DNA of 64,000 nucleotides from Methanosarcina sp. MTP4 (lineage in GTDB: Archaea; Halobacteriota; Methanosarcinia; Methanosarcinales; Methanosarcinaceae), in the NCBI RefSeq assembly GCF_000970045.1, contig NZ_CP009505.1:3930808-3994807 (forward strand). The letters are read 5' to 3'. The notes under the pieces were generated by a model. That model made no database searches. It saw only the letters and a list, made by a program, of their open reading frames with translations, and was not told the DNA's origin. The position numbers and the translations under genes were made by a program. Shown one piece after another: positions 37,004 through 44,902 of the stretch. Numbering within the stretch: position 1 is the stretch's first letter; each line of letters starts with the position of its first letter.

Positions 37004-37195
37004 GAAAGGTTCACAGTAAATGGATATTGTTTCTATGATCCAAATCAAGAAAAATGCAGTTTCTCAAAGAATAAACAAGATGGGTAAGTTTTTCCTCTTT
37101 TACAATGGAGAGTTTCATTATTCATTAAAACTTTTTTTGGATAATATAAAAATGTTAAAATAACAGAGTTATTGTATATATATAAGGGATATATG

Positions 37196-38011
37196 AGATG
37201 CCAAGCAGATAATGAAAAAATGACTCTAATTGATTCTTTACTCCTTTCTAAAAAAAGACGTGAAATTGTCGAATCTTTATTTTATGAGGATAAAACTTCA
37301 GAGGACCTTAAACGACTACTTAAAGTTGAATGGGTTTTACTGAAAGAGCCGATAAAAAAACTAATGGAAGAAGAACTTATAATTTGTCATGACAAAAAAT
37401 ATAGCTTATCAAAAGTAGGTAGGGTTATCTGTGAAAATACACTTCCTTTGGTTGAACTTGCAGAAACATTTGGCAAGAATCCTGAGTATTGGATCAGTCG
37501 TGATTTAAGTCCAATTCCTGAATATTTAGCTGGAAACATTGGTAAAATGAAAGGTTGTAGCGTGGTTGTTCCTCACCCAGACCATATGTTTGAACCTTTA
37601 AAAGAAGTTATCAATGAGTCGGAGAAAGAGATTGCCTTCTCAGAAGAAATAAAACTTTGTTTAGTTTTATTTTATCCCGAATCAATTGATATTTTAACAG
37701 AGTATTCAAAACGTGGGATTCACATAACCCTTATTTTAACAAAGTATATTTATGATAAAATGCTCAACGAATTTCAAGATAAGTTAAAGCTGTTATTGGG
37801 ATCAAAAAATTTGAATCTTTTCGTATTTAATGAAAACAAAGTGATTCCCCAGATTGTAATTACAGATTTTAAAGCTTTAGTAATTTTTTTCAATCAAAAA
37901 GGTAAATATGATTATCAGGAACTTTTAGGTTCTGATATATATGCTTTAGAGTGGGCAACGGAACTATTCTCTTATTATGAAAAATGTTCCGAACATATAA
38001 GCACTATTTAA
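37196..38011 (+). CDS. DUF1724-type winged-helix regulator (first copy)
   Basis: The N-terminal 80 residues form a winged helix (SKKRREIVESLFYEDKTSED, then KKLMEEELIICHDKKYSLSK). The rest matches the methanogen DUF1724 effector domain (YWISRDLSPIPEYL, VVVPHPDHMFEPLKEVINES). Proteins of this type (Msr regulators) control methyltransferase genes in Methanosarcina. AAGGG lies five bases before ATG 37196; an upstream TTG at 37172 and an internal ATG at 37220 are alternatives. The gene is clearly AT-rich and points toward the methyltransferase block. Binding targets are inferred from position. Confidence 0.82.
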   Translation, partial: RCQADNEKMTLIDSLLLSKKRREIVESLFYEDKTSEDLKRLLKVEWVLLKEPIKKLMEEELIICHDKKYSLSKVGRVICENTLPLVELAETFGKNPEYWISRDLSPIPEYLAGNIGKMKGCSVVVPHPDHMFEPLKEVINESEKEIAFSEEIKLCLVLFYPESIDILTEYSKRGIHITLILTKYIYDKMLNEFQDKLKLLLGSKNLNLFVFNENKVIPQIVITDFKALVIFFNQKGKYDYQELLGSDIYALEWATELFSYYEKCSEHISTI

Positions 38012-38348
38012 GTTAGTTTTTGGCAATCTTGTTTTACCTAATTCATAGTAATTTTTTCAATAAGCTCATCCCAAAACTTGATGTAATATAATAATTGCTC
38101 CCATAATCACAATTTTTTGTATCCAATTTTTTTGTTCCTGCAGTGCCCTGACCACCTGGAGAATTGAAGCGAAAGAGCAACGCCGGTACAAAAAGGTTTT
38201 CAGAATTTTTGATGCAGTTCCCATTCCCCGGTAAATGGCAAACCGGTTTAGGGAAGGCATTTTTCCTGAATCTTCCAGGTTCCGGGTGTCCCATGTGAAG
38301 CCTGGAGGTTATATGCTTTGGGCCCCGGTGTTTTTTAGATCGTTTTTC
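38012..38348. other. Spacer with a diverged copy of the RNA-like repeat
   Basis: About 340 bases after the regulator. At 38222-38255 the sequence TTCCCCGGTAAATGGCAAAC plus CGGTTT resembles the start of the two tandem units that follow, keeping the CCGGT/ACCGG pairing. The rest of the unit is not recognisable. No gene is supported; small frames on the minus strand run through the repeats. Confidence 0.5.
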
Positions 38349-38585
38349 GGGCCGGTGTTTCCCCGGTAAAATGGCGAAACCGGGTTGAACCAACCTTCTG
38401 GAGGTATTTTTGTGGATTTTGTGGATATAAACTGTCCTCTCCACGGGAAGACACATTAAAATGGCAAATGTGTACTTCCCGGGGCAAGGCGTTGCAGGTA
38501 TGACTCACTTCTTGGGGGAGATATGATAACAATGTCTATCGAGAGAGGGGTTAAGGCATTGTCATCAGCGTGATGTATTTTTTTT
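38349..38585 (+). ncRNA. Predicted structured RNA unit, copy 1
   Basis: This is the first of two tandem units of about 240 bases. Paired elements visible on the plus strand are CCCGGT/ACCGGG, ACCTT/GAGGT (one wobble pair), CTCA/TGGG, ACAATGTC/GGCATTGT and, last, CATCA-GCG-TGATG followed by a run of T, an intrinsic terminator shape. Several differences from copy 2 change a Watson-Crick pair to a G-U pair and keep the stem. No frame is shared by both copies along their length. It lies between a DUF1724 regulator and the convergent permease. Nothing proves it is transcribed. Confidence 0.45.
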
Positions 38586-38593
38586 CGAATTTA

Positions 38594-38829
38594 GGGCTGG
38601 CATTTCCCCGGTAAAATGGTGAAACCGGGTTGATCCAACCTTCTGAAGGTATTTTTGTGGATTTTGTGGATATAAATTGTCCTCTCCCCGGGAGGACACA
38701 TTAAAAAGGCAAACGTGTACTTCCGGGGGAAGGCGTTGCAGGTATGACCCACTTCATGGGGGATATATGATAACAATGCCCATCGAGCGAGGGATTAAGG
38801 CATTGTCATCAGCGTGATGTATTTTTTTT
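38594..38829 (+). ncRNA. Predicted structured RNA unit, copy 2
   Basis: This second tandem unit is offset by 244-245 bases from copy 1 and highly similar. It has stems CCCGGT/ACCGGG, ACCTT/AAGGT, GTCCTC/GAGGAC, CCCA/TGGG, ACAATGCC/GGCATTGT and a terminal CATCA-GCG-TGATG before eight T residues. The GTCCTC stem is perfect here but has one mismatch in copy 1. A one-base length difference in the middle breaks any shared reading frame. A repeated mobile sequence is the main alternative to an RNA gene. Confidence 0.45.
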
Positions 38830-38902
38830 GAATTCGTTTCTTAATTCGTTATTGCTTTTATTCTCGCATTTATTTGTTCATGCTTTTGGGATAATTTCAT
38901 TT

Positions 38903-38937
38903 AAAAAAAGGCCCCTAATACAATACAAATAGGGGCC
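38903..38937 (-). terminator. Terminator of the permease transcript
   Basis: On the minus strand TAGGGGCC closes a stem with GGCCCCTA around a 12-base loop (38910-38937), followed by seven T residues (A-run 38903-38909 on plus). It begins about 29 bases after the permease stop, a strong intrinsic terminator. Confidence 0.8.
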
Positions 38938-38965
38938 CAGTCTATTTTTGATTCTTACCTCTTGT

Positions 38966-40462
38966 TCAAGAATCAATGGGTATATTTGAATCAACGGCTA
39001 TATTTTCCTCTGAGCTACCAGACTGGCCCTGTGAATAGAACCAAATTGGTACATAAACTGCCAGCACTCCAAAACCAACAAGAGTCGATGCCCATCCGAT
39101 TTCAATACTGTTCAAATAGATGATACCTATAATGAAGAACGGTATATTTATCAAACCGAATATCAATGCAACATGCTTCCAGCCAGTTGGTGCTTTGAAT
39201 GGTCTTTCAAGTCTTGCAAGCTCTGGGTCGTTCTTTGCTTTCACATAAGCAAAGAGGCTGATACCCTGTGCAGCAATATATCCAATTGCTGATGCAGCAA
39301 GAATCGCTACAGGTGTTCCAAGAGATACAAATCCAAGATTTATCACAGCAATGAACGCCATGGCAACATATGGAGCTCCGTTACCATTTACTTTGCTAAA
39401 TACACGAGGAAAGTTCCCTTCGATCGCCATTGAATGCAGTGATCTTGAAGAACCAAGGTAAATAGTCTGTATCAACAAAATCATTGCTGTAATGAGCATG
39501 AATATTGCAACTACTGCTCCTGTAGCTCCAAATGTCATCTGAGCAACGGGCAACAGTGGAGTAAATGATTCTGCAATCGTCTGACTTACACCAATGGTTC
39601 CAGTTACTGATGCCTGGATTAGTACAAATGACAGAAGACAGACTCCACCGCAGGCGAAAAGTGCTTTTGGTACATCGCTACCGGGGTTCTTGTACTCAGG
39701 ACCATAGATCGCAGCTGTTTCCCATGCACATGCACTCCATTCAGCCATCGCAAACAAGCCGAATAAGATCAATATGTGATGAAGGTCCCATGCCCAATCC
39801 GTTGGAAACCATTCAGAAGTGATATTTGTTATGTTGAAATCACCTGTTGCAAATGGTGAAAGTGTTATAATAATAAGAGGCCCAAGAGACAAAACTGCAA
39901 GTATATACCCGAGTGTTGCTCCGCTGGAAAGTCCCCTAAGATTAATAACCATAAGCAGAGAGAATATTGTTATACAAGTAATATATGCAACTTGCATTTC
40001 ACTAAAAGTATTTGAAATTGAGGGAAACAAACTATAAAGATAACTAGAAGCCACCAGGGCGAATATGGACATTGCTGGAGCCCATCCAAACCAATAACTC
40101 CAAGCACTAAACCCACCAATAAATTTACCCTTGTCATACCTTCCTTTATGGTTTCGTGTTTTGAAAATGTTTTGTGCAAAACCCGGCAATCCGGATGCAT
40201 TTGGAAAAGCTGTAGCCAGTTCTCCAAATGCAGTGTTTTGCGCAAAGCCCTGAAGTACTGACAGACCCCATACGAGTATCGCAGCGGACCACAAATAACT
40301 TGATAAATAACCTATTGAGGGCAATATCGCAAGAGGAACACCCAAAGCAATTGCAAGACCCTGTTTCCAATCAATTGATCTCTCAAGGTTGCTGGCCTCA
40401 CAAATCACTTTAGAACATTGTTCGGCATGCTGCCAATCAACGCCTTCTTTTTTTTCAACCAT
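38966..40462 (-). CDS. APC-superfamily permease of the methyltransferase block
   Basis: A 498-residue membrane protein with about twelve hydrophobic segments, in the amino acid-polyamine-organocation style: early GYLSSYLWSAAILVWG, and SRSLHSMAIEGNFPRVFSKVN in the second half. Permeases of this sort sit beside methylamine and other methyltransferase genes in Methanosarcina and are thought to import the methylated substrate. The first 25 residues (MVEKKEGVDWQHAEQ and on) are soluble, and a copy of them occurs at 43581-43646. AAGGATGTGAT precedes the ATG. The gene is AT-rich and lies 381 bases beyond the second methyltransferase on the same strand. Confidence 0.85.
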   Translation of the reverse strand: MVEKKEGVDWQHAEQCSKVICEASNLERSIDWKQGLAIALGVPLAILPSIGYLSSYLWSAAILVWGLSVLQGFAQNTAFGELATAFPNASGLPGFAQNIFKTRNHKGRYDKGKFIGGFSAWSYWFGWAPAMSIFALVASSYLYSLFPSISNTFSEMQVAYITCITIFSLLMVINLRGLSSGATLGYILAVLSLGPLIIITLSPFATGDFNITNITSEWFPTDWAWDLHHILILFGLFAMAEWSACAWETAAIYGPEYKNPGSDVPKALFACGGVCLLSFVLIQASVTGTIGVSQTIAESFTPLLPVAQMTFGATGAVVAIFMLITAMILLIQTIYLGSSRSLHSMAIEGNFPRVFSKVNGNGAPYVAMAFIAVINLGFVSLGTPVAILAASAIGYIAAQGISLFAYVKAKNDPELARLERPFKAPTGWKHVALIFGLINIPFFIIGIIYLNSIEIGWASTLVGFGVLAVYVPIWFYSQGQSGSSEENIAVDSNIPIDS

Positions 40463-40843
40463 ACTTGATCACATCCTTTTTTAACAATACTCCATTTTTG
40501 GGTCGTGAGGACGAGTTTCTGAAGACCAGAAGACCAGAAGCCCACGAATATCTCGTTATTTTTTTTAAATGTTAGGTATGTACTCGTTTTTTTAGAGTAT
40601 ATTTTTACACTCAATGATTGTAAACCGGTTCGGGGGGTTTCGGAGGAACAAGTGGCTACTGCCTTAACCCAGGTCTTGAACCTGTCAGTTGAGGGGAAGT
40701 CCCACAACCAGGAATACTACCTTTGCTCCTCCGTCGAATAGGGTTTGCCACACACAATTGGGTTTTCCCCGGAGTTTTTGCCCCTTTTCTGCCGCTATGC
40801 ACTTAACGGACTCATACTCCGGAAATTTTCCTTTTTATCGTTT
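40463..40843. other. Spacer between permease and methyltransferase genes
   Basis: A 381-base gap. A 100-codon minus frame (40405-40707) overlaps the permease start in another phase and has no ribosome site; part of it (WDFPSTDRFKTWVK) could be a relic of an insertion element, which I cannot confirm. It probably also holds the permease promoter. Confidence 0.35.
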
Positions 40844-41854
40844 TTACTGATTTGCGCTTTCCCTGGCTGCTTCTACCATTGCTTTTATGTTTTCCAGGCT
40901 TGCTCGGGTCGGGATCCCGCAGCCGGGAGCCAGGACGTTTGCCCCTTTCCGGATGCATTCCAGGGACTCTTCTTTCACAGTTTCGGGGGTGCCCAGGAAG
41001 AGGGTGTCCGCAGGGTTTATGTTCCCGATGATTGCTGTTTTGCCTCCCAGGACTTCCCTGGCTTCACCCACGTCCACCAGGTGATCCAGGCTGATCCCGC
41101 TTACTCCGGTTTCCGCCATCATCTCCAGGATGGGTTTCGAGTCTCCACAGATGTGGAGGATGCTCGGGACACCCAGGCTTTCCACAAGCTCCTTGCAGTA
41201 GGGAAAAGCCATTTCCCTGTAGTGCGCTGTTCCCAGGAGTTCGCTCCCCGCGGAAGGGTCGATGATGACCACGGCATCTGCTCCGTTTTCAACAAGGGCT
41301 TTACCGTAGGTTTTCAGGACCTCCGTGGAATACTTCAGAAGGGACTTGACGAAATCCGGATTGTCGAAGAAGTCCATGAGGAGGGTTTCGACACCCCTGA
41401 CCTGTCCGGCGAGGGTGAAAGGACCGACGATTCCTGCAATTACGGGCACGGTCTCATCCGTTTCCGCAAGGATCCTGACGGCTTCCACAACAGTTGCCAT
41501 CCTGCCGTCCGCAAGCGGTTCCGGGCATACGGCATCCTCAAAGGCTTCTATTTTCCGGAAAGCCGCCCTCCGGATGGAGGGCTGGGAGTCAAGCCTCCCT
41601 TCGCTGACCTGGGAACCCACGGTTTCGGCTTCCACACAGAGGTCGAAAGGCACTCTTGCACTTTCGATCCCGGCAAGCCTGTTTGCCGCAAGGGCCAGAG
41701 TTGCCATCTTTTCCGGGTCGCGGTGGGCTTCGGGCCAGGCAGCCCCGGACTCTTCCATCATTTCAACGGTTGCGGTCTGCAGGGGGCAGGCTGCCGAGAC
41801 CCTGTCGACTTCTTCCAGTTTCAATGATGCAAGAAAGCGTTCTTTATCGTTCAT
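40844..41854 (-). CDS. Methylcobalamin:coenzyme M methyltransferase, MtaA/MtbA family
   Basis: These zinc enzymes of the uroporphyrinogen-decarboxylase fold transfer the methyl group from a corrinoid protein to coenzyme M. The 336 residues contain the zinc ligands His234 and Cys236 (LHICGDSKP) and Cys312 (APGCGIP), spaced as in characterised MtaA (His237, Cys239, Cys316). VGPFTLAGQVRGVE and DPSAGSELLG are also family features. The gene starts 16 bases after the corrinoid protein gene and is GC-rich. The CoM role is inferred from similarity and gene order. Confidence 0.9.
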   Translation of the reverse strand: MNDKERFLASLKLEEVDRVSAACPLQTATVEMMEESGAAWPEAHRDPEKMATLALAANRLAGIESARVPFDLCVEAETVGSQVSEGRLDSQPSIRRAAFRKIEAFEDAVCPEPLADGRMATVVEAVRILAETDETVPVIAGIVGPFTLAGQVRGVETLLMDFFDNPDFVKSLLKYSTEVLKTYGKALVENGADAVVIIDPSAGSELLGTAHYREMAFPYCKELVESLGVPSILHICGDSKPILEMMAETGVSGISLDHLVDVGEAREVLGGKTAIIGNINPADTLFLGTPETVKEESLECIRKGANVLAPGCGIPTRASLENIKAMVEAARESANQ

Positions 41855-41870
41855 TGCTAGCCTTCCTACC

Positions 41871-42512
41871 TTACTCGGAAAGCAGTCTCTGAGCTACCCT
41901 TATGGCCTCGGAAGCATTGTCAGCATACCCATCTGCTCCGATGTTGTCACAGAACTCCTGGGAGACAGGGGCTCCTCCGACCATAATCTTGATACCGGGG
42001 AATTCTTCTTTGAAAAGCTTGACGTCTTCTTTCATTTCCATCATGCTTGTTGTCATGAGGGCTGAAAGGGCTACAAGGTCGACGTGTTCCTCTTTGATTT
42101 TATCCTGGAAATCTTCGGGAAGGACGTCTTTTCCCAGATCGAAAACAGTCAAACCCGCGGTTTCAAGTAAGAGTTTTACGAGGTTTTTGCCGATGTCATG
42201 GATGTCTCCAAGGACAACTCCGATGGCTACTCTCCCCGATTCCTTGATTTCATCGGCTTTAATGTGCGGCTTGAAGATTTCCACGGCCCCTTGCATCGCC
42301 CTTGCGGCGAGCAGGATTTCCGGGACAAACATTTCTCTCTTTTCGTATTTGTCGCTGACAATGCTCATCCCATTAGCACAGCCATTGATGACTGCATCAT
42401 AAGCATCGACGTTGTTCTCCAGAGCTTTGTTTGCAAGCTCCACACATTTACTAGCATCACCTTTAACTACGGCTTCTGCCAGGCTGTTCAGGATTTCATC
42501 TCTTGCGGCCAT
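41871..42512 (-). CDS. Methyltransferase cognate corrinoid protein
   Basis: The protein carries a corrinoid between two methyltransferases. Its 213 residues show the helical cap domain (residues 1-88) and the B12-binding domain with DIHDIG, where His105 is the lower cobalt ligand (Asp103, His105, Gly108), then SALMTTSMMEM and GGAPVSQEF. It belongs to the MtbC/MttC/MtmC kind. It lies between two zinc methyltransferase genes, 42 bases after one and 16 before the other, so the three form an operon. It is GC-rich like the CoM methyltransferase and unlike the first methyltransferase. Confidence 0.93.
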   Translation of the reverse strand: MAARDEILNSLAEAVVKGDASKCVELANKALENNVDAYDAVINGCANGMSIVSDKYEKREMFVPEILLAARAMQGAVEIFKPHIKADEIKESGRVAIGVVLGDIHDIGKNLVKLLLETAGLTVFDLGKDVLPEDFQDKIKEEHVDLVALSALMTTSMMEMKEDVKLFKEEFPGIKIMVGGAPVSQEFCDNIGADGYADNASEAIRVAQRLLSE

Positions 42513-42554
42513 TCTTGTTTCACCCTTTTTTTTAGTTGATTTTGTTCACGAATT

Positions 42555-43577
42555 TTAGACATTAGTATTATCTTTCCATATCTCGACGTTCTCCATCGGT
42601 GTTCCAGGTGCAATGTCACAACCTCCTGCAAGAATGTGTCCCACACCACCTGTTGACTCGATACAGGTTCTTATTTGAGCACGTACATCATCAGGAGTTC
42701 CATTGAAAAGTGTGTTTGCCACATCGAGATTACCTAAAAGTGTAACTTTTTCACCCATCACTTTTCGGGCTGCAGCTAGGCCAACTGGTAAATCGACGGA
42801 TAAAACATCATGAGGGATTTCAACTATACTCCCGACTCGATCTGACACATCCCCGCAAATGTGTATCATCACATCTCTTCCAGCCGCTTTGAGAGTACCC
42901 GAAAGGTCTGTCATATACGGCTGGGAATAAGTTTCAAACGTTGCTTTTGATATGAGATTACCTGACGCGGTAGGGTCACACATAAACACCCCATCAACAT
43001 CGAGTGAGTCCATCAGGTACTTATTATATACTTTTAAAGTCTCAGTCGAAAAAGAGAGGAGTTCTTTGACAAAGTCAGGATCTGTGTACAGATCAAGCAT
43101 CATTACCTCAACGCCACGCAGCTCCCCGGCCAAAGTAAATGGAGCCATTAGGTCGTAGTAAGTGTACCGCTCCTCTCCGATAACATCAATCAATTTGGCT
43201 GCAGTCTCAATACCACTTTTTAGCCTCTTATCCTGACTAGGATCCGGGATCTCAAGAGCCTCAAGTGAAGAGGCATCGGAAACGACGTGTGTCCTGGTGC
43301 TTGGTCCACCCACATCAGTTATGTTTACCTCACATCCAAGTGCCGGTAAGGGAGTTTGCCAGTCCCATAACACCTCTAAAGCATCAAAATCGCACTTTTC
43401 CAACACTTTAAGCTGAGCCTCTGCAGCGAGAGCAGGATTGTCGAAAGACTTCTGAACGGACACGTTAGAGTATTCGAGGGCCCAGTACCCTTGGAATGGT
43501 CCACAGATAGGAACACTCTCCACTGGCTCAAAATTTAGTGCAGCAAGCATTTTCTCTTTATGGTTAGAGTAGCTCAT
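42555..43577 (-). CDS. Uroporphyrinogen decarboxylase-fold methyltransferase, likely substrate:corrinoid
   Basis: A second zinc methyltransferase, 340 residues, with His239 and Cys241 (IHICGDVSD) and Cys320 (AGGCDIAPG). It is clearly diverged from the MtaA/MtbA-like gene of the same operon. Other members of the fold demethylate substrates such as aromatic methyl ethers or chloromethane and load a corrinoid. Being first in an operon that already has a CoM methyltransferase, it most likely demethylates the substrate; the substrate is unknown. AAGGAGTG precedes the ATG, inside a short permease-like fragment. Composition is AT-rich. Confidence 0.85.
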   Translation of the reverse strand: MSYSNHKEKMLAALNFEPVESVPICGPFQGYWALEYSNVSVQKSFDNPALAAEAQLKVLEKCDFDALEVLWDWQTPLPALGCEVNITDVGGPSTRTHVVSDASSLEALEIPDPSQDKRLKSGIETAAKLIDVIGEERYTYYDLMAPFTLAGELRGVEVMMLDLYTDPDFVKELLSFSTETLKVYNKYLMDSLDVDGVFMCDPTASGNLISKATFETYSQPYMTDLSGTLKAAGRDVMIHICGDVSDRVGSIVEIPHDVLSVDLPVGLAAARKVMGEKVTLLGNLDVANTLFNGTPDDVRAQIRTCIESTGGVGHILAGGCDIAPGTPMENVEIWKDNTNV

Positions 43578-43580
43578 TTT

Positions 43581-43646
43581 TTACACTCCTTCGTCATCTA
43601 TGCGTTGTTCAGCATGATGACAATCAACACCTTCTTCTTTTGTCAT
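43581..43646 (-). pseudogene. 21-codon copy of the permease N-terminus
   Basis: ATG 43646 opens MTKEEGVDCHHAEQRIDDEG, one further residue and a TAA at 43581-43583. It aligns with the permease start MVEKKEGVDWQHAEQC, with strong DNA similarity across about 33 bases (EGVD..HAEQ). The frame ends four bases before the methyltransferase ATG and contains that gene's ribosome site. It is either the remains of a second permease gene or a leader peptide. Confidence 0.6.
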
Positions 43647-43924
43647 GTCTCTAAACCCTGGGTTTTGGCTCTTCACCATTCTCCGTGGGTAAGACGATTT
43701 TTAATCCAAGGCCATGTTGGTTTTTGATATGAATACACGCACAAAACAACGAGAAGCCTTTGTTAGTAAAAACCCGAATAGATACCATACTTAAAAAATT
43801 CGATATCAATCGGTGTTAACCCTACTACAGTTAAGAATATGTATCAACTAATATATAGGAAAAATTATACTTCTATTTCAATCGCTGTATTCCTTTGACA
43901 TGAATAGAATAGCAATATCATGTG

Positions 43925-43982
43925 TCACATGTTTTTGTCAGGGGTCACATGCTTTGTCAGGGATCACATGCTTTTGTTAATA
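43925..43982. promoter_or_regulatory. Three direct repeats of about 20 bp (candidate operator)
   Basis: TCACATG plus TTTTTGTCAGGGG (43925), TCACATG plus CTTTGTCAGGGA (43945) and TCACATG plus CTTTTGTTAATA (43964) recur with 20- and 19-base spacing, close to two helical turns. They lie between the divergent methyltransferase operon and the second DUF1724 regulator, so a regulator binding array is plausible. Confidence 0.5.
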
Positions 43983-44116
43983 GTGAAAAAATCCTAATTC
44001 AGTCATAGCTTACATATTTTATATCCAAAAATCAAGCTAAAATTTCAATTTTTTTCGCAGAGTTGTTTCAATTATACGTTAGGTATTTAATAAATGCCCA
44101 TCCCAACAAATGTATA

Positions 44117-44902
44117 ATGAAAAATGATCTACTCAATACCATATGGTTGTCAGAAAAAAGACGAAAACTTATTCACCTTTTAAAAGATGGTCCAAAAGAT
44201 ATTGATGAGATTAAATCCACATTTAATGTATCTTCACGTTTAATTGTACCTCAGATAAAGCAATTGGAAAAACAAAAAATCATAATCGAAAATGATGGAG
44301 TATTTCAATTATCAAATATTGGGGAATTATTAATTGACAAAATGCTGAAGATTGTCGATATTAACATACTACTGGAAAAGGATAAGGATTATTGGGAGAA
44401 ACGTACGTTATATTCATTGCCTCCACAAATGTATGAAAAAATTGGTGATTTGAAAAATAATTATTTGTACGAATACAATATTAATAATGTCTTAGAAATA
44501 CCACCACCATTTTATCCTCATCTGGTAAAAACCAACCACTATTTTATGTTGTTACCCTACTTTCACCCCAACGTCATAAGAGAAACACTGAACATAACGA
44601 AAAATGGAACCAAAACCATATTGCTTGCCACACCGAAAGTCGTTAAAAGAATAAAAAAGGAATTTCGAGAAGATTTAACAAAACTTATCAACTCTCCAAA
44701 TCTAGAAATAAGAATTCTTGATGAAAAAACAAAACCTCCAGCACTCTTTATCACTGATGACCTGATATTAATCGGATTTGCCACCGAAGAAGGTGTGTGG
44801 GATGATCGGGAACTAATTAGTCAGGACGAAAAGGCCTTAAATTGGACACAAGAACTATTCATATATTATAAGCATATGTCTACGCCTTTAAGTGGGATTT
44901 GA
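44117..44902 (+). CDS. DUF1724-type winged-helix regulator (second copy)
   Basis: A paralogue of the regulator at 37196: winged helix (WLSEKRRKLIHLLKDGPKD, KQLEKQKIIIENDGVFQLSN) followed by the effector domain (KDYWEKRTLYSLPPQMYEK, ALFITDDLILIGFATEEG). It is transcribed away from the methyltransferase operon and is very AT-rich. The frame opens at TTG 44063, but ATG 44117 (MKNDLLNTIWLSEKRR) aligns with the other copy's start, giving 261 residues. No ribosome site is visible, so the message may be leaderless. It probably controls the divergent operon. Confidence 0.82.
   Translation: MKNDLLNTIWLSEKRRKLIHLLKDGPKDIDEIKSTFNVSSRLIVPQIKQLEKQKIIIENDGVFQLSNIGELLIDKMLKIVDINILLEKDKDYWEKRTLYSLPPQMYEKIGDLKNNYLYEYNINNVLEIPPPFYPHLVKTNHYFMLLPYFHPNVIRETLNITKNGTKTILLATPKVVKRIKKEFREDLTKLINSPNLEIRILDEKTKPPALFITDDLILIGFATEEGVWDDRELISQDEKALNWTQELFIYYKHMSTPLSGI

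Follow-up and report, generated by a model that had tools for sequence, protein, structure and literature searches.

Among the described systems, the methylamine permeases of the APC family (AA_permease_2, PF13520), which are encoded beside mtbC-mtbB, come close to the small open frame studied here. Codons 1-14 of this mini-frame align with their (K/E)EG(I/V)DWxHAEQ motif, although the mini-frame has no membrane domain and comprises 21 codons compared with about 500 in the permeases. A second likeness is that to truncated gene remnants at operon rearrangement points: the mini-frame is a short 5' end with a full paralogue nearby, one relative lacks the start codon, and coding constraint is undetectable. 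It differs from such remnants in that it is open in all three species compared and overlaps the ribosome site of the following gene, U1. Finally, as a small frame located 5' of a methylotrophy gene it resembles the uORFs and small proteins of Methanosarcina mazei. According to PMC11456600, 10% of the unannotated small ORFs of this organism are located in 5'UTRs, and the small protein sORF_05 is encoded in a dimethylamine operon together with a permease. As described there, sORF_05 is a hydrophobic membrane-associated helix, whereas the mini-peptide presented here is polar. In the literature searched, including the accessible parts of PMC8547467 and PMC11456600, neither this locus nor profiling data for it were found.

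Organization of the locus

The window, which is the whole stretch of 64,000 nucleotides that was analysed, originates from the 4.21-Mb archaeal chromosome of Methanosarcina sp. MTP4. On its minus strand the mini-frame, reading from ATG to TAA and encoding MTKEEGVDCHHAEQRIDDEGV, is followed by the genes U1, C, U2 and P in this order (Table 1). U1 is a divergent URO-D methyltransferase with at most 33% identity to the paralogues of its own genome, and it may be a substrate-specific methyltransferase for an unidentified methyl donor. Regulator genes are found on both sides of the operon (44120-44902 and 37172-38011), one of them divergent and one convergent. The regulator at 44120-44902 matches FilR1_middle (PF08350), and relatives of both flanking regulators are found near the permease in other genera.

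Table 1. Coordinates of the features discussed in the text (positions refer to the window).
Feature	Position	Strand	Remark
Mini-frame	43581..43646	-	21 codons; codons 1-14 permease 5'-end fossil, codons 15-21 without detectable permease origin
U1, URO-D family (MtaA/CmuA-like) methyltransferase, 340 aa	42555..43577	-	
C, corrinoid (B12-binding) protein	41871..42512	-	
U2, MtaA-like methylcobamide:CoM methyltransferase	40844..41854	-	
P, APC-family permease, full-length paralogue of the fossil	38966..40462	-	
Segment with permease P, missing in UBA293	38204..40684	-	sharp junction, CTGA at both ends
Inverted repeat within the mini-frame, predicted RNA hairpin just 5' of the U1 ribosome-binding site	43591..43623	-	arms 43623-43612 and 43603-43591
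AGGAGTG in the mini-frame end, likely Shine-Dalgarno of U1	43584..43590	-	by duplex energy
92-bp MITE-like dispersed repeat in the leader, ends GGCTTCTCGTT / GTGAAGAGCC	43667..43758	-	

Among 111 family genomes, an orthologue of U1 (E <= 1e-100) was found in two, one of them the own genome, and the genome collection yielded two loci. The distinct U1 loci number three including the window, and the two relatives are Methanosarcinaceae archaeon UBA9310 and Methanosarcina sp. UBA293.

Homology to the permease N-terminus

The permease P starts with MVEKKEGVDWQHAEQ, which aligns with the mini-frame in protein as well as in DNA, just as the initial annotation had claimed. In a local DNA alignment of both upstream regions 35 of the 41 columns are identical, with one gap, and the score is 50, whereas 2000 dinucleotide-shuffled leaders average 21.9 and reach 36 at most. 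A degenerate DNA pattern of the EGVD-C/W-x-H-A core matches exactly two sites in the own genome, namely the mini-frame and P, while the control gave none.

In addition, a profile was built from 13 full-length permeases, for which P and three near-duplicates were excluded from the 17 carriers of the motif. Against this profile, which spans the N-terminal region only and whose E-values are not meaningful as database values, the mini-peptide reaches 13.9 bits over residues 2-14, and none of 2000 shuffles scored as high. The UBA293 form reaches 9.2 bits (2/2000 shuffles equal or better) and the UBA9310 form 6.4 bits (9/2000). Because a profile made without P also matches the mini-peptide, the match does not depend on P alone.

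The notion of a 21-codon copy of the permease N-terminus has to be restricted, however. The resemblance is confined to the first 14 codons, and a shuffle test found no match of the last 7 codons to P beyond chance. These last codons might have arisen by an internal deletion that fused HAEQ with the IDWKQG motif, but such an origin is unsupported, as the fraction of shuffles with at least the observed value was 0.09 for UBA293, 0.87 for the window and 0.22 for UBA9310. With its 21 codons the mini-frame contains no transporter domain and is not an APC-family member by domain content, whereas P has PF13520. Furthermore, an in-frame ATG at 43679, which stems from the inserted repeat, opens a frame of 32 codons in the window, and the true extent of any mini-frame is therefore uncertain.

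The permease family behind the fossil

Of 29 family permeases, 17 (P included) share an N-terminal motif centred on EG(I/V)DWxHAEQC or closely related to it; the other twelve have N-termini without it. P shares 64-67% identity with permeases from other genera, and several of these adjoin mtbC-mtbB genes. In five of eight permease neighbourhoods from other genera the permease is immediately preceded by a gene matching TIGR02368 (dimethylamine methyltransferase) far above the cut-off; a single neighbouring corrinoid protein was tested and matches MtbC. The MtbB matches end at profile position 355, which agrees with the in-frame amber codon that is read as pyrrolysine. Glycine betaine had also been considered as the context of the related permeases and was dropped, since NCBIfam identifies the neighbours as the dimethylamine genes mtbC and mtbB. 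In none of the eight neighbourhoods of other genera is the permease followed directly by a URO-D methyltransferase.

Because the motif-bearing N-terminus belongs to permeases encoded beside dimethylamine methyltransferase genes in other genera, the mini-frame represents a permease 5' end and not an independent leader. It derives from a methylamine-type permease gene, whose substrate, judging from the neighbouring genes, is probably dimethylamine. Over 36 motif bases the mini-frame of the window shows 5 differences to P and 7-21 to 16 other permeases, but 36 bases are too few for a tree and one other permease is almost as near as P (7 versus 5 differences). For the leader upstream of the fossil (300 bases before the mini ATG of UBA293), comparison with the 5' flanks of 18 permeases gave no score above the maximum of the respective 200 shuffles. 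On this basis the capture of a permease promoter or leader was rejected.

The locus in related genomes

The homology to the permease N-terminus was found at all three distinct loci, in each case directly before U1 and with one loss of the start codon. In UBA293 the ATG is kept and the mini-frame encodes MTKKEGVDCYHAGQYIDSKGVQ, whereas in UBA9310 CTG replaces ATG and the sequence reads LPKEEDLDCHHAEKHIDGKGV; the frame is open in all three species. The initial annotation had named the absence of both the peptide and a permease-start homology from related strains as evidence against it, and both relatives turned out to have the fossil before U1. A full permease at the same position in related genomes, which it had proposed to look for, was on the other hand found directly before U1 at none of the three loci, all of which carry the fossil.

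In the comparison of the window with UBA9310, 8 nonsynonymous substitutions and 1 synonymous one were counted in the mini-frame, as against 9 and 21 in U1; with UBA293 the counts are 8 and 2, as against 61.5 and 68.5. Differences at nonsynonymous sites are enriched in the mini-frame over U1 (Fisher p 1.8e-6 for UBA9310 and 0.06 for UBA293), the constraint being judged from three sequences and small substitution numbers. As far as these sequences tell, the U1 methyltransferase is constrained, while the mini-frame is without detectable coding constraint.

The two loci that can be followed to the other end of the operon differ there. UBA293 possesses U1-C-U2 with the same flanking regulators but without P, the segment listed in Table 1 being absent as a whole. 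This can be due to a deletion in UBA293 or to an insertion in the window. With this segment present in one species and missing from the other, the permease counts as a variable component of the operon. In UBA9310 no U2 above 64% identity was found and the U2-P region lies between contig ends; since contigs end on both sides of this region, the absence of P from UBA9310 is not taken as a loss, and such a reading was dropped. The fossil, in turn, is common to the window and UBA293 and therefore predates their split.

The divergent regulator beside the fossil in UBA293 (L064:4815-5270) has an open frame of 151 codons compared with 260 in the window, and its DNA similarity to the window runs along the whole gene. 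This regulator may be broken.

Origin of the mini-frame and alternative explanations

We consider it likely that the mini-frame is the remnant of a truncated permease copy and is now the leader of U1. In this view, a dimethylamine-type permease gene was once present in a second, truncated copy at the front of the U1-C-U2 operon, or was brought there by recombination, and a deletion before the split from UBA293 took everything past codon 14. The leftover would now form the 5' leader of U1, with the Shine-Dalgarno of U1 in its end, and would not be maintained as a peptide. That a full permease formerly preceded U1, and in which order the events took place, we infer. The earlier suggestion of a gene replacement footprint, in which a second permease was lost, is accordingly upheld in part only: full permeases of other genera carry the motif as their N-terminus, the fossil is present at all three loci and its codons drift, but with the full permease missing from every locus the replacement itself stays a matter of reconstruction. 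An open frame in all three species is allowed by drift, but is not predicted by it. Nevertheless, the mini-frame is probably not a working peptide.

An extension of this remnant origin, in which the fossil RNA took over the translation control of U1 after the deletion of the permease body, by means of a hairpin and a frame ending at the next start, is conceivable but unlikely.

We also regard it as unlikely that the mini-frame is translated for the sake of translational coupling, i.e. that the peptide is irrelevant and that ribosomes ending before the U1 ATG reinitiate there. The distance from the mini-frame stop to this ATG is 3 bases in the window, and not four as stated initially, and 2 bases in UBA293, which would suit reinitiation. 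So would the frame being open throughout, and the upstream in-frame ATG from the repeat could stand in for the one lost in UBA9310. However, apart from this loss, the ribosome site at the mini ATG of the window is weak (-3.8 kcal/mol, near the random mean of -3.2), and in UBA293 a GGAG is located only about 2 bases before the mini ATG. Moreover, U1 has a good Shine-Dalgarno of its own in all three species (-7.6 to -8.7). In the window its duplex energy is -7.6 kcal/mol, compared with a mean of -3.2 for random sites, whose 5% tail of -8.3 is not exceeded.

A retention of the fossil as an RNA element, that is as a hairpin 5' of the U1 ribosome site which controls translation or mRNA stability, appears quite unlikely to us. 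The mini-frame of the window folds as a stem of 12 pairs with -14.0 kcal/mol (z -2.0), and 7 of 200 shuffles were as good. In the three species 12, 11 and 11 of the 12 pairs are kept, including one double change from C-G to U-A, and a neutral simulation reaches such pairing in 1.1-2.1% of the trials, a value which is optimistic because the stem was picked after folding. Against this element stands that 172 of 500 letter shuffles reach the observed score, so that this control is uninformative, that another fold is slightly better than the stem in UBA293, and that no Rfam family was matched in window positions 40300-44300.

Very improbable is a functional leader peptide common to the transcripts of permease and methyltransferase, perhaps a metal-sensing one. 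A shared leader peptide had been proposed at first, together with possible metal binding by its His, Cys and Asp. Cys9 and His11 do persist in the three species, but UBA293 has Tyr in place of one of the two neighbouring His residues and the peptide looks unconstrained overall, and nothing points to metal binding. A regulatory leader peptide is expected to conserve its start and its peptide; here the start codon is present in two out of three species, having been lost in one of the two relatives, and most changes are nonsynonymous. The 3 bases before U1 also leave no space in which an attenuator could lie ahead of the first gene. In the permease, moreover, the motif forms the conserved N-terminus of a protein of 498 residues. 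A chance resemblance of the mini-frame to the permease start, to which the shortness of only 14 codons might lend itself, is refuted by the shuffle tests of DNA and profile and by the fossil being present in three genomes, and we consider its probability practically negligible.

As a truncated permease remnant, the fossil is a small trace of the reshuffling of methylotrophy operons in methanogens: one end of the operon retains a permease fragment as a fossil, the other has either gained or lost a full permease, and the leader has received a mobile repeat. Had the fossil become a working leader, it would illustrate how a dead gene can supply a 5' regulatory region. Mainly, however, the mini-frame cautions against small-protein annotation.

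The 92-bp repeat in the leader

The repeat is present in the leader of the window and of UBA9310 and absent from that of UBA293. In its better copies it has 10-bp inverted ends, GGCTCTTCGT/ACGAAGAGCC. Copies are numerous in related genomes; with all matches counted, the leader query finds 12 places in one genome (G001) and 7 in another (G033). Among 26 loci scanned (L037-L062), ten copies have both ends recognised, and two of these (L047, L054) are flanked by direct duplications of 8 bp, which we take to be reminiscent of ISL3-type elements.
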